Of a stretch of 64,000 bases of DNA, positions 24,267 to 29,120 are shown piece by piece. The notes below the pieces were generated by a model. That model was given only the letters and a program-made list of their open reading frames with translations. It searched no databases and was not told the origin of the DNA. The stretch spans positions 1-64,000 of the forward strand of contig DATFYX010000020.1 of the NCBI GenBank assembly GCA_035314825.1. Direction: 5' to 3'. Position numbers and translations under genes: made by a program. Each line of letters starts with the position of its first letter. Position 1 is the first letter of the stretch. The stretch is from Candidatus Eremiobacteraceae bacterium. GTDB lineage: Bacteria > Vulcanimicrobiota > Vulcanimicrobiia > Eremiobacterales > Eremiobacteraceae.

Positions 24267-25102
24267 TGATCCTACGCGGTGTTCTCACGCTGGCTCTTAT
24301 CGCAGCGTGCGTATTCTTCGCCCCGAGTCCTTCGCCCGCCGCGTCGGCGCCCGCGGCAACTCCGATGCCCATGAACATGGATATGGGTGGCATGCAGCCC
24401 AGCGCGACCCCGATGCCGAGTCAGATGATGCAGGACCCCGAGATGGGCATCGCATCGCCTGTGAACGACACCGACTGGTCGGTGTTCAACCATCGCGGCG
24501 CCGGATTTTTCCTGTTCTTCTGGGGCTTCACCGCGCTGATCGCCGGATTGATGTGGCCGCGCCGCACGTGGGTGAACTACGTGCCTGGACTGGTGCTGTT
24601 GGGTCTCGTGGAGTTTCTGTTCTTGCGCAACGACCCTAAGGCGTGGCCGAGCGGCCCGTACGGATTTTGGATGAGCTTCCAAGACCCCTCAGTACTGCAG
24701 CACCGGGTCTTCGTCGTTCTCCTGCTCGTGCTGGCGATCGTCGAACTGCTGCGCGCTGCTGATCTCTTGCCGCCGTTGTTGAAGGTGTGGGCCGTGCCGG
24801 CGATCGCTGTCTTCGGCGCCGTCTATCTGTTCTTCCACACGCATGGCGGCATCGAGACGCAGCAGATGATGAAGCACATGTCTGACCCGGGCATGGCGTC
24901 CAACCCGGCGATGCAGAAGATGATCGCTTCGATGCAAGCGGTCAAGCGCGAACACGCCATCTTCTCGTTCTTAGGTTTCGGACTTGCTGCCGCGAAACTG
25001 CTCGCCGACGGCGGACTGATCAAGGGGCGCTTGGGCGCGACGCTGTGGACGTTCTTCGCGATGGCGCTTGGGATCTACATGTTCGGCTTCTACGCGGAGT
25101 AG
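24266..25102 (+). CDS. Met-rich polytopic membrane protein of unknown function
   Basis: A 278-aa protein. The signal peptide is followed by a Met/Pro-rich segment (PMPMNMDMGGMQPSATPMPSQMMQ), the type often seen in copper-binding exported domains. About five TM helices follow (about 75-95, 100-115, 145-165, 175-190, 230-270), with a second Met-rich loop (QQMMKHMSDPGMASNPAMQK) between the last ones. It resembles copper-handling membrane proteins in style, but I cannot name a family. An SD (AAAGGAGA) precedes the ATG, and the gene shares one base with the pseudo-M48 stop, so they are coupled. Confidence 0.65.
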   Translation: MILRGVLTLALIAACVFFAPSPSPAASAPAATPMPMNMDMGGMQPSATPMPSQMMQDPEMGIASPVNDTDWSVFNHRGAGFFLFFWGFTALIAGLMWPRRTWVNYVPGLVLLGLVEFLFLRNDPKAWPSGPYGFWMSFQDPSVLQHRVFVVLLLVLAIVELLRAADLLPPLLKVWAVPAIAVFGAVYLFFHTHGGIETQQMMKHMSDPGMASNPAMQKMIASMQAVKREHAIFSFLGFGLAAAKLLADGGLIKGRLGATLWTFFAMALGIYMFGFYAE

Positions 25103-26010
25103 CTCCGCAGCGGCCGCAAGCGATCGTAGAACTCCCGCAGCGTCGGAACCCTTTGCAGGTGCCCGCTCTGGCGTCCGACGACGCCGGTCGCGGCCTTTCC
25201 CCCGAGCCAGAGCTCGGTCGTATCGGGCAATGCCGCCGACAACGTGGCGACCGCTCGCCGCAGGCCAGCTTTGCTTCGGCTACGTGCCGCCCCGATCACG
25301 ACGATGCGTGCGCCGACCTCCGCAGCGCTGCGTGCGATCTCCGACGAGGGCATGTTCGGGCCGAGATAATGGACGCGGATGCCCTCGGACGCTGCGAGCA
25401 TGGCCGCGAGCAGGATGCCGAACTCATGCGGCTCGCCGGCGGGCGTGGCGAAAAGCACGCGGGGCGCATCCTGCGCCACCGCATATCGGCGGATGAGATT
25501 GCCCAGCACCGACCGGGCGATGGCCGAGAACAGATGCTCCTGCCCGATCTCCATCGCGCCTTTGCGCCACGCCTCGCCGATCTCGCCGAAGAGCGGCGAC
25601 ATCACGTCAAAGACGAACTCCGCCGGGGTCAATAGATGAGACGCGGCCGCCAGCATGCGGTCGACCTGCTCGCCATCGTAGCGCTGCAGTCCGCCGAGCA
25701 CCGCGCGCGTGAACGAATCCGCGTGCCCGCGTCGCGTTCTGGGGCGCGAGACCGTAGCCTGCGGCGCCTTGACCCGCACGAGCTCCGCCAGCTCTTTGGG
25801 CTTGAGCCGCGCGGCTTCGCCGATCGGGAAGCCCAGATCCGTCGCGGACCGTAACTCGCGCAGACGCGCGATATCGGCTTCCGAGTAACGCCGGATCCCG
25901 CGCGTGTCGCGGCGCGGATCGACGACGCCGTAACGCCGCTCCCACTTCCGTATGGTATCGGGCGTGAGCCCGGTGAGTTTGGACGCGCCGAGAATCCGAT
26001 GGTCTGCCAT
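25090..26010 (-). CDS. MerR-type regulator with cobalamin-binding domain (CarH/LitR-like photoreceptor)
   Basis: A 306-aa repressor. Residues 5-70 form a MerR helix-turn-helix (LTGLTPDTIRKWERRYGVVD, RRYSEADIARL). Residues about 95-185 form the four-helix cap with the W-x9-EH motif of CarH (W of AWRKGAMEIGQEH). The B12 domain has E-P-H-E-F-G (ExHxxG, the lower-ligand His) and ends with LWLGGKAA. In the family the dark, adenosylcobalamin-bound tetramer represses promoters and light releases it. The residue after the Trp is Arg, where Thermus CarH has His. FAS1 lies upstream on the same strand. Convergent overlap of 13 bp with the Met-rich gene. Confidence 0.85.
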   Translation of the reverse strand: MADHRILGASKLTGLTPDTIRKWERRYGVVDPRRDTRGIRRYSEADIARLRELRSATDLGFPIGEAARLKPKELAELVRVKAPQATVSRPRTRRGHADSFTRAVLGGLQRYDGEQVDRMLAAASHLLTPAEFVFDVMSPLFGEIGEAWRKGAMEIGQEHLFSAIARSVLGNLIRRYAVAQDAPRVLFATPAGEPHEFGILLAAMLAASEGIRVHYLGPNMPSSEIARSAAEVGARIVVIGAARSRSKAGLRRAVATLSAALPDTTELWLGGKAATGVVGRQSGHLQRVPTLREFYDRLRPLRSYSA

Positions 26011-26071: not shown

Positions 26072-26491
26072 TTACGCGGGCAGGATGACGGCGTCGATGA
26101 CATGGATGACGCCGTTGGAGCATTCGATGTCGGCTTGTGTGACGTGAGCATCGTTGACCTTGATACCGCCGCTGACGGGCTCGAGGACGATGCTTTGGCC
26201 TTGCAGCGTCTTCAGCGTCGTCTTCGCCCTCACGTCGGACGACATGTACTTGTTGGCGACGACGTGGTAGGTCAGGATCGACTTCAGCTTGGGGATGTCC
26301 TTGAGCAATGCGTCGACCGTGCCGGCGGGCAGCTTGGCGAACGCGGCATCGGTCGGGGCGAACACGGTGTACGGCCCCGGGCCTTTGAGCGCGTCGACCA
26401 GGCCGGCCGCGCCGACTGCGGCCGCGAGCGTGTTGAACGAACCGGCGTCGACCGCGGTGTCGACGATGTCCTTTAAACCGGTTGTTTGCAT
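26072..26491 (-). CDS. Fasciclin (FAS1) domain protein, cytoplasmic type
   Basis: A 139-aa single FAS1 domain. The H1 box reads [17 protein letters not shown] (about 41-57), then [16 protein letters not shown] (the YH motif), and H2 is [14 protein letters not shown] at the C-terminus. There is no signal peptide, in contrast to most FAS1 adhesins. GGAG lies about 10 bp before the ATG at 26491. FAS1 genes of this short type are known companions of CarH/LitR regulators. Its promoter region is shared with the SDR operon and includes the 11-bp repeats. Confidence 0.9.
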
Positions 26492-26627
26492 GTGAGTGAC
26501 TCCTTCGTGCGAGAACGTTGAGTTCGGCGATTGCTCGCCTGGCGACACCATACACGTAAGTGCCAGGCGTCCTCAAACGTTTCCAGCGTGCGGCTGAGGC
26601 CAAAGTCGCTACATTCACGAAATTCTC

Positions 26628-26660
26628 TTGGTCAAACGTTGGACGAAGGTTGGACAACGG
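26628..26660 (+). promoter_or_regulatory. Three tandem 11-bp direct repeats, putative CarH-like operator
   Basis: The units are TTGGTCAAACG, TTGGACGAAGG and TTGGACAACGG, each beginning exactly 11 bp after the last (26628, 26639, 26650). They lie in the 216-bp gap between FAS1 (minus) and the SDR gene (plus). In the Thermus CarH structure the DNA-binding domains contact tandem 11-bp repeats that include the -35 element. On the minus strand, repeat 1 contains TTGACC, a plausible -35 for FAS1, with only a weak TAGCGA as -10. The base identity of the repeats differs from the TACA-containing Thermus sites. Function is inferred. Confidence 0.5.
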
Positions 26661-26707
26661 CGCGCGAAGCACAGGCCTCGACCGCGACCGAGCGGGAAAC
26701 ACTTGGC

Positions 26708-28186
26708 ATGAGAGTTCTTGTCACCGGCGCGACCGGATACATCGGAGGCCGGCTCGTACCGCGGCTCATCGCCGCGGGCCATTTCGTGCGCTGTCTGGCG
26801 CGCTCGCCGAAGCGGCTCGCCGGCCGGTTCGCCGGGGCGGAGATCTTTCCGGGCGACGTGCGGGACTCTCTCGATCTGCCGGCGGCATTCGCAGGCATCG
26901 ACGTCGCATACTACTTGATCCATTCGATGGGCGCCGGCGGAGCTGACTTTCAAACGCGCGATCGTGAGACGGCTCGCAATTTCGCCACCGCCGCCAAAGC
27001 TGCGGGTGTGAAGAGAATCATCTACCTAGGCGGCCTCGGCGATGCGAAGCGCGACTTGTCCGAGCACTTGCGCAGCCGCCATGAGGTCGGCGACATCTTG
27101 CGCGACCACGGCCCACCGGTGACGGAATTCCGAGCCGCGATCGTCATCGGCTCGGGCAGCGTGTCGTTCGAGATGATCAGGTATCTCACCGAGCGGCTGC
27201 CCGTCATGATCGCGCCGAAATGGGTCGCGACGCGCTCCCAGCCGATCGCGGTCGGCGACGTGCTCGAGTACTTGGTCAGCGCGCTCGCCATCGAGCGTAC
27301 GATCGGCCGCACCTACGACATCGGTGGCCGGGATATCGTGAGCTATCGCGACTTGATGCTCGGCTACGCGCGTGCGCGCGGGCTGCGCCGGACGATCGTG
27401 GGGGTCCCGTTCTTCACGCCGCGCCTGTCATCGTACTGGATACACATCGTGACGCCGGTGCCTGCGAGCATCGCGCGGCCGCTCATCGACGGCTTGCGCA
27501 GCGAGATGATCGTGCAGAATACGGCCGCGCTTTCGGACTTCGACATCCGGCCGATCGGGTGCGAAGAAGCGATCCGCCGCGCTTTGGACCGCTATAGCGG
27601 TGTCGATCGGCCGACGACATGGTTTGACGCGTACGAGGGCCGCCAGTCGCTCGGCGAGTTCCGCGGAATCGTCCAGGGCATGTTGATGGACCGTCGCGAG
27701 CGTCGCACCGGTGCATCCCCGAGCGCCGTCTTCGCCGTCGTGACGTCGCTCGGCGGCTCGCGCGGTTGGCTCTATGCCGACTGGTTGTGGGCGTTGCGTG
27801 GCATGATGGACTGGGCGCTGGGCGGCAACGGGATGCGCCGCGGGCGGCGCTCACCGGCGTCGATGCGCATCGGCGACGCGGTCGACTTGTGGCGAGTGGA
27901 GGCGCTCGAGCCCGACCGCCTGCTGCGGCTGCGTGCCGAGATGAAGCTGCCGGGCAACGCCTGGTTGGAGTTCGCCGTGGTGCCGGACCAGGCGGGATCG
28001 ACGCTGAGGCTCACGGCCTTCTTCGAGCCGCGCGGGTTGGCCGGCCAACTGTATTGGTACGCAGTCGCGCCTATCCATGACGCGATCTTCGCCGGCCTGG
28101 CGGATCAAATCGTCAAGCGCGGCGCCGCTCTCGGTGATGCGGTCAGCAGCTCCTCGGGAAGCGCGCTCGAGGCCGCACCGTCGTGA
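26708..28186 (+). CDS. NAD(P)-dependent SDR with C-terminal DUF2867 domain
   Basis: A 492-aa protein. The extended-SDR Rossmann domain has VTGATGYIGGRLVPRL (residues 5-20), GDVRD and an altered active-site region, YYLIHSMG then RIIYLGGLGD, instead of a clean YxxxK. The C-terminal about 150 residues (RGWLYADWLWALRGMMDWAL, LRLRAEMKLPGNAWLEF) match DUF2867. Function unknown. Starts at the ATG at 26708, 47 bp after the 11-bp repeats. It overlaps the TspO gene by 1-4 bp. The same fusion often accompanies B12-photoreceptor regulators. Confidence 0.87.
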   Translation: MRVLVTGATGYIGGRLVPRLIAAGHFVRCLARSPKRLAGRFAGAEIFPGDVRDSLDLPAAFAGIDVAYYLIHSMGAGGADFQTRDRETARNFATAAKAAGVKRIIYLGGLGDAKRDLSEHLRSRHEVGDILRDHGPPVTEFRAAIVIGSGSVSFEMIRYLTERLPVMIAPKWVATRSQPIAVGDVLEYLVSALAIERTIGRTYDIGGRDIVSYRDLMLGYARARGLRRTIVGVPFFTPRLSSYWIHIVTPVPASIARPLIDGLRSEMIVQNTAALSDFDIRPIGCEEAIRRALDRYSGVDRPTTWFDAYEGRQSLGEFRGIVQGMLMDRRERRTGASPSAVFAVVTSLGGSRGWLYADWLWALRGMMDWALGGNGMRRGRRSPASMRIGDAVDLWRVEALEPDRLLRLRAEMKLPGNAWLEFAVVPDQAGSTLRLTAFFEPRGLAGQLYWYAVAPIHDAIFAGLADQIVKRGAALGDAVSSSSGSALEAAPS

Positions 28187-28653
28187 TGGCGATCGGGCTT
28201 ATCGTCGCCCTCGCCGCATGTTTCGGTGCCGCCGCGCTCGGATCGATATTCACGACGCCGCGCCTCGGCGATTGGTACGCGAACATCCGCAAGCCTGCGT
28301 GGACGCCGCCCTCGTGGCTCTTCGCACCGGTGTGGACGTTGCTCTTCATCATGATGGCGGTGTCGGTGTGGCTCGTCTGGCTGCGCGCGGGCTTCGCCGG
28401 CGCCTCGTGGGCCTTCGCATTGTTCGCCGTGCAGCTCGCGCTCAACGTGCTGTGGTCCGCGTTGTTCTTCGGCATGCGCAATCCAGCAGCGGCGTTCGCG
28501 GAAGTGATCGTCTTCTGGCTCGCGATCGCCGCGACAGCGCTCGCATTCTCGCGCATAGACGCACTGTCAGCGCTCTTGCTCGTGCCCTACCTGCTCTGGG
28601 TGGCCTTTGCGGCTATCCTCAACTTCGCGATCTGGCGGTTGAACGCGAGCTAG
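28186..28653 (+). CDS. tspO: TspO/MBR (translocator) family membrane protein
   Basis: A 155-aa five-helix membrane protein. The signature residues are PAWTPPSWLFAPVWTLLF (about 37-54), LALNVLWSALFFGMRNP (about 85-101) and YLLWVAFAAILNFAIWRLN at the C-terminus. The family binds porphyrins/heme and is linked to oxidative stress and photo-oxidation. The start is the ATG at 28186, at the stop of the SDR gene (a GTG at 28183 is the alternative). Its place behind a CarH-like operator agrees with a role in light or porphyrin stress. It overlaps the ferritin-like gene tail to tail by 4 bp. Confidence 0.93.
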   Translation: MAIGLIVALAACFGAAALGSIFTTPRLGDWYANIRKPAWTPPSWLFAPVWTLLFIMMAVSVWLVWLRAGFAGASWAFALFAVQLALNVLWSALFFGMRNPAAAFAEVIVFWLAIAATALAFSRIDALSALLLVPYLLWVAFAAILNFAIWRLNAS

Positions 28654-29120
28654 CCTGATACGTCCGGCGGGTCCACCCCCAGCGCGGTGGCCAAATCGAT
28701 CTGATGGTCCTGCTCGTTGACCAGGATGCCGCGGATCTGCTCCGCCATCGCGAATTCTCCGAGCTGCTCGCACTGCCGGACGCGCTCGCGATAGTTGCGG
28801 ATCGTCTCGACCTCGTTGGCCAGATCGAAGCGCAGCATGTCCTTGGGTTTGCCGGACGTGCGCACGGGCCTTGCCATGACGGTCGGCATCGCGCCGAGGT
28901 AGTCGATCTGGCGCGAGATGATCAGCGCGTGCTCGAGCTCTTGCTTGGCGTGCAGCTCGAGCTGGTCGGCGATGTTCATGTACTCGGCGCCCTTGAGCAC
29001 TTGCGAGTAGACGACATACGCGATGATCGCCTGGTACTCGCGGGAGAGATCCTCGTTCAACAGCTCGGCGAGGCGCTTTCGCGTCAAGCTCTTTTCCTCT
29101 TTGGCTGCTCGTGCTTTCAT
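28650..29120 (-). CDS. Ferritin-like (bacterioferritin/Dps-type) protein
   Basis: A 156-aa four-helix bundle with di-iron ligands: Glu in DLSREYQAII (about 29), Glu and His in AKQELEHALII (about 60-64), Glu in ANEVETIRNY, and Glu/His in ILVNEQDHQIDL near the C-terminus. It resembles bacterioferritin. Iron oxidation and sequestration are expected, which limits Fenton chemistry. It is convergent with tspO and could be part of the same stress module, but it has its own promoter region. Confidence 0.85.
   Translation of the reverse strand: MKARAAKEEKSLTRKRLAELLNEDLSREYQAIIAYVVYSQVLKGAEYMNIADQLELHAKQELEHALIISRQIDYLGAMPTVMARPVRTSGKPKDMLRFDLANEVETIRNYRERVRQCEQLGEFAMAEQIRGILVNEQDHQIDLATALGVDPPDVSG

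Follow-up and report, generated by a model that had tools for sequence, protein, structure and literature searches.

The window analysed here, a stretch of 64,000 nucleotides from a genome of 2.55 Mb that is 97% complete, contains two divergent presumed operons separated by a 216-bp gap (26492-26707). On the reverse strand, a gene encoding a fasciclin-domain protein (FAS1; 26072-26491; Pfam PF02469, E=1e-40) is the first gene of a presumed FAS1-carH operon, and is followed after a 61-nt gap by a co-directional gene for a CarH-type regulator of 306 amino acids (25093-26010), an arrangement that an earlier note on this DNA had missed. On the forward strand, a gene encoding an NmrA/epimerase-like SDR fused to DUF2867 (26708-28186; Pfam PF13460, PF05368, and PF11066) forms a presumed SDR-tspO operon with a gene for a TspO/MBR protein (28186-28653; Pfam PF03073, E=3e-46), whose start codon overlaps the stop codon region of the SDR gene. 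A gene encoding a ferritin-like domain protein (28650-29120, reverse strand) converges on tspO. The gene setting given in the earlier note is borne out: FAS1 lies on the reverse strand, SDR/DUF2867 and then TspO on the forward strand, and a CarH-like MerR protein on the reverse strand, 0.6 kb away.

Within the gap, three repeat units on the forward strand (26628-26660), TTGGTCAAACG, TTGGACGAAGG, and TTGGACAACGG, begin at 26628, 26639, and 26650, which bears out the exact 11-bp steps reported earlier. The formula then proposed for the unit, TTGGWCRAASG, fits the first two exactly, while the third is off by one base. When the roughly 64,000 positions of the window were scored by the number of columns identical across three consecutive 11-mers, this 33-mer emerged as the most self-similar tandem sequence with an 11-bp period (7 of 11 columns identical). 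No fourth unit was found upstream or downstream of 26625-26657, and a two-unit pattern had no matches in dinucleotide-preserving shuffles of the window. Across the 2.55 Mb of the genome, a looser two-unit pattern with one mismatch allowed hit this site and, apart from it, a single poor match; the repeats thus have no second good match in the genome.

The repeats can be read in a register three bases further to the left, at 26625-26657, which is probably the one used for protein binding. The consensus of CarH repeats is nnnnTnnACAn; degenerate repeats are tolerated, and binding has been seen at sites combining one or two full repeats with degenerate ones (PMC9304148). In this register, the three units of the putative operator (CTCTTGGTCAA ACGTTGGACGA AGGTTGGACAA, forward strand) contain TGGTCA, TGGACG, and TGGACA, matching the TnnACA core at 3/4, 3/4, and 4/4 positions, and thus represent one full repeat and two degenerate ones. 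They also conform to the published operator search rule, by which three tandem 11-bp units carry T-N3-C and at least one is a full, RCR-type repeat (PMC9304148). Scored against the prior CarH consensus, this is the sole place in the window that reaches at least 10/12 with a full repeat, and the consensus score of the intergenic region alone has a p of 0.01 by shuffling. As the three-base shift brings out the known TnnACA repeat, the new DNA specificity that had been suggested for these units falls away. A related pattern, TNGACRR-N4-TNGACRR, had ten matches in the genome, all of which, except for the window site, lacked good TnnACA pairs. Its excess over the reversed pattern consisted mostly of TCGACG matches and was discounted as evidence.

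The regulator matches the Pfam models MerR_1, B12-binding_2, and B12-binding, with the MerR-type DNA-binding domain preceding the B12-binding domain; B12-binding scored 29.2 bits, slightly below its cut-off of 32.1. Its similarity to the structures of Thermus thermophilus CarH/LitR (TtCarH) in the PDB extends across the DNA-binding and B12-binding domains (3whp, E=4e-24; 5c8d, E=5e-24). Wx9EH and ExHxxG are the motifs that define CarH proteins (PMC8156234). The first is present as W-RKGAMEIGQ-EH and is kept in all nine aligned members of the class, while the second is present as EPHEFG, followed downstream by the GG of LGG, both aligned with TtCarH. The best NCBIfam family was CarH (NF052513), at 123.6 bits against an equivalog cut-off of 400, which makes the regulator a distant CarH-type protein and not an equivalog of NF052513. 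The genome encodes no second CarH. A gene for a PduO-type cobalamin adenosyltransferase is present in this genome as well, so that a supply of AdoCbl for the regulator is plausible.

One residue sets the regulator apart from TtCarH, as His132, which adjoins the Trp and serves as the light-state ligand, is replaced by Arg. The aligned CarH proteins of the class have R, E, L, A, H, or G at this position; the His is not conserved among them, whereas Wx9EH is. His132 is not a defining CarH motif: CtMerR, a light-responsive cobalamin photoreceptor, likewise has Arg at this position (PMC11796333).

Only one other member of the family carries a close relative of this CarH, with 64% identity (G003; L010 and L106). 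This genome keeps the order of FAS1 and carH and the AAGGAGT-ATG start region of FAS1. Upstream of these genes is a three-unit site, AGATTGGCCCT CATATGGACAA AAGCTAGACAA, with two full repeats and one degenerate repeat, in register with that of the window (conserved in L010); a TAGCGAC common to both genomes lies at an equal distance from it. When the two upstream regions were compared without gaps over 60 bp, the best match was the repeat block itself, with 34/60 identical positions; of 300 random pairs, 1 scored as high. The earlier note had named a lack of conservation in relatives as grounds for refutation; the repeats are kept in G003, and in register. A PduO-type adenosyltransferase was not detected in G003 when this type was searched for. 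The two other members of the genus had no match to the CarH or the SDR of the window, and the comparison at genus level was therefore uninformative.

Conservation of the operator alongside the regulator extends from G003 to other genera of the class. Seven further class genomes with a CarH homologue were examined closely, and five of these (G045, G061, G043, G029, and G094) have two CarH-type units in an 11-bp register at carH or at a carotenoid operon. In G045 and G043, a divergent SDR-like reading frame faces carH-SDR and carH, respectively, across the operator; in G061, the operator lies between SDR-carH and a TIGR01777 oxidoreductase gene. In G029, it immediately precedes carH, and a photolyase gene comes next; this site is weaker evidence, as it was skipped by the automatic best-score pick and found with a pattern built from the other sites. 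In G094, two full tandem repeats head a carotenoid operon that ends in carH. G035 has a weaker, inverted version, in which single repeats are placed on opposite strands between a carH-containing carotenoid operon and a TIGR01777 gene. No CarH-type site was recognised upstream of carH in G027, where a site with a score of 9 (L037:6971) was discounted as being at chance level. Over the nine class carH promoter regions, the prior CarH consensus is enriched with a Fisher p of approximately 2e-5, or 1.6e-4 when the window is left out.

Mixed layouts with direct and inverted TnnACA units on both strands were seen in some operators of the class (L038:1815-1890 and L105:6440-6520). The photolyase gene of G029 directly follows carH on the same strand (L036:1-1800, G029:C283), and a carH fragment in G043 (G043:C47) is likewise followed by a photolyase gene. 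No operator was recognisable near the single photolyase gene of the window's genome.

The overlap of operator and promoter is clear in G043, G045, and G061. Both divergent promoters of G061 and of G043 have -35-like hexamers (TTGACA, TAGACA, and TGGACA) that fall on the repeats and lie 17-18 bp away from -10-like hexamers. In the window, the possible -10 region is TAGCGAC (26605-26611, on the FAS1 strand, i.e., the reverse strand), which is a weak sigma-70 -10 match, is kept in G003 at an equal distance, and is separated by 18 bp from the operator hexamer on the FAS1 side. By comparison with those relatives whose repeats themselves supply the -35 hexamer, TTGACC in unit 1 (26630-26635, reverse strand) may be the -35 of FAS1-carH, although the resulting candidate, TTGACC-18 bp-TAGCGA, is a weak one. 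A sigma-70 promoter scan returned nothing at the window site or in G003, and as a consensus sigma-70 promoter was not recognised in this region, we only infer that repression would occur by blocking transcription. With FAS1 and carH being co-directional, the repeats are probably the promoter/control region of carH itself.

Taken together, the consensus fit, the CarH motifs, and the conservation support, at the level of sequence, the earlier proposal that the repeats are the operator of the local CarH and serve both flanking operons. The operator reading is well supported by comparison, and we consider it highly probable that the repeats act as a dark-repression operator for CarH and AdoCbl, common to FAS1-carH, which would be autoregulated, and SDR-tspO, and relieved by light. 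In the dark, AdoCbl-bound CarH, encoded at 25093-26010, would form an oligomer, with one DNA-binding domain seated on every 11-bp repeat. The oligomer would block the FAS1-carH promoter, such that CarH represses its own gene, and very probably the divergent SDR-tspO promoter as well. Light would then cleave the cobalt-carbon bond, upon which CarH would leave the DNA and both operons would be switched on together. We infer CarH binding, its oligomeric state, the sign of repression, the promoters, and the light response at these repeats; the known CarH systems offer the simplest reading. The earlier note had FAS1 and SDR-tspO controlled in opposite directions; if opposite signs were meant, joint repression in the dark is what one would instead expect from the mechanism of known systems and from relatives with a shared operator.

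The placement of SDR-tspO among the targets draws on its position here and on the linkage of SDR and carH genes in two other genomes (G045 and G061). It is possible, though we think it unlikely, that the CarH operator serves FAS1-carH only, while SDR-tspO uses a promoter of its own downstream of the site. FAS1-carH and the operator stand without an SDR gene in G003, the SDR-tspO pair is kept in G007, which has no close CarH relative, and the downstream block with the best conservation (TAGCGAC) belongs to the FAS1 side; against this separation, an SDR homologue shares a presumed transcription unit with carH in both G045 and G061, the operators of the relatives regularly lie between two divergent genes, and the SDR gene starts just ~50 bp away from the operator.

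That the repeats bind another regulator, and that the proximity of CarH is incidental, seems improbable to us. The operator is indeed 0.6 kb from carH with FAS1 in between, and two of its three units are degenerate, but the prior CarH consensus is matched, the same arrangement is found in G003, and sites occur at carH in several other genera. Moreover, the SDR homologues of three family members without a close CarH relative (G005, G007, and G013) have no such site upstream, with best scores of 6 to 8 compared to 10 in the window. Functionless chance repetition in a GC-rich intergenic region is the most remote of these readings: the single-site consensus p is just 0.01, but this is the top self-similar 11-bp tandem triple in 64 kb, the shuffles give none, and the site is conserved in register in G003.

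A CarH/AdoCbl operator shared by the two operons would be a switch of a type that is already known, but new in where it sits and in what it probably controls. T. thermophilus CarH (LitR) has the same MerR and B12-binding domains, the same Wx9EH and ExHxxG motifs, and an operator of three tandem 11-bp nnnnTnnACAn repeats; the window differs in the Arg that takes the place of His132, in the degeneracy of two of its three repeats, and in its flanking genes, which are FAS1 and SDR-tspO and not carotenoid genes. The CarH operators of Myxococcales (Sorangium and Haliangium) are a further parallel: they consist of one or two full repeats with degenerate ones, some are placed between divergent genes, one full repeat with two degenerate ones suffices for binding, and a single CarH site can serve divergent promoters (PMC9304148). 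In the LitR regulons of Pseudomonas, the light-controlled genes beside the LitR gene include those for a photolyase and a short-chain dehydrogenase (PMC9758184). The relatives of the window resemble this setting, with carH beside a photolyase gene (G029) or SDR genes, while the Pseudomonas LitR sites (TGTACA-N12-TGTACA) are unlike the repeats of the window.

If confirmed, the operator would add an uncultured class to those with 11-bp direct-repeat operators for CarH, and would link CarH to FAS1, SDR-DUF2867, and TspO genes. As the genome apparently has one CarH and one operator, the locus would amount to a minimal and easily tested B12 photoswitch, and would provide a natural case lacking the His132 ligand. 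In Mycobacterium kansasii, the genes induced by light include tspO and fasciclin genes, and the text of that paper names no MerR or cobalamin regulator (PMC9861118). The combination of FAS1 and TspO therefore hints at a recurring light-stress module. A search of the literature found no CarH-TspO connection of substance.

Carotenoid control is the classical role of CarH, and carotenoid genes are its targets in the Myxococcales. A gene of the phytoene/squalene synthase family (SQS_PSY, PF00494) was not found in the window's genome, which makes carotenoid control by CarH unlikely there. Such a gene is present in 9 of the 11 genomes compared, and its absence here suggests either that synthases of the carotenoid/hopanoid type have been lost or that the assembly has a gap. 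TspO is a tetrapyrrole-binding protein. We see roughly an even chance that a CarH whose light-state ligand position is occupied by Arg, uncoupled from carotenoids, controls itself together with FAS1, SDR-DUF2867, and TspO, such that light would induce TspO and surface functions instead of pigment.

Within the genus, G001 has two PF00494 matches, and G002, which is 72% complete, has none. Elsewhere in the class, the carotenoid operons of G094 (L039:5723-12641) and G035 (L105/L040) end in carH and contain two phytoene-desaturase-like genes, along with genes for a phytoene synthase, an acyltransferase, and a glycosyltransferase. The operon is divergent from a TIGR01777-type gene in G035, and apparently also in G094.
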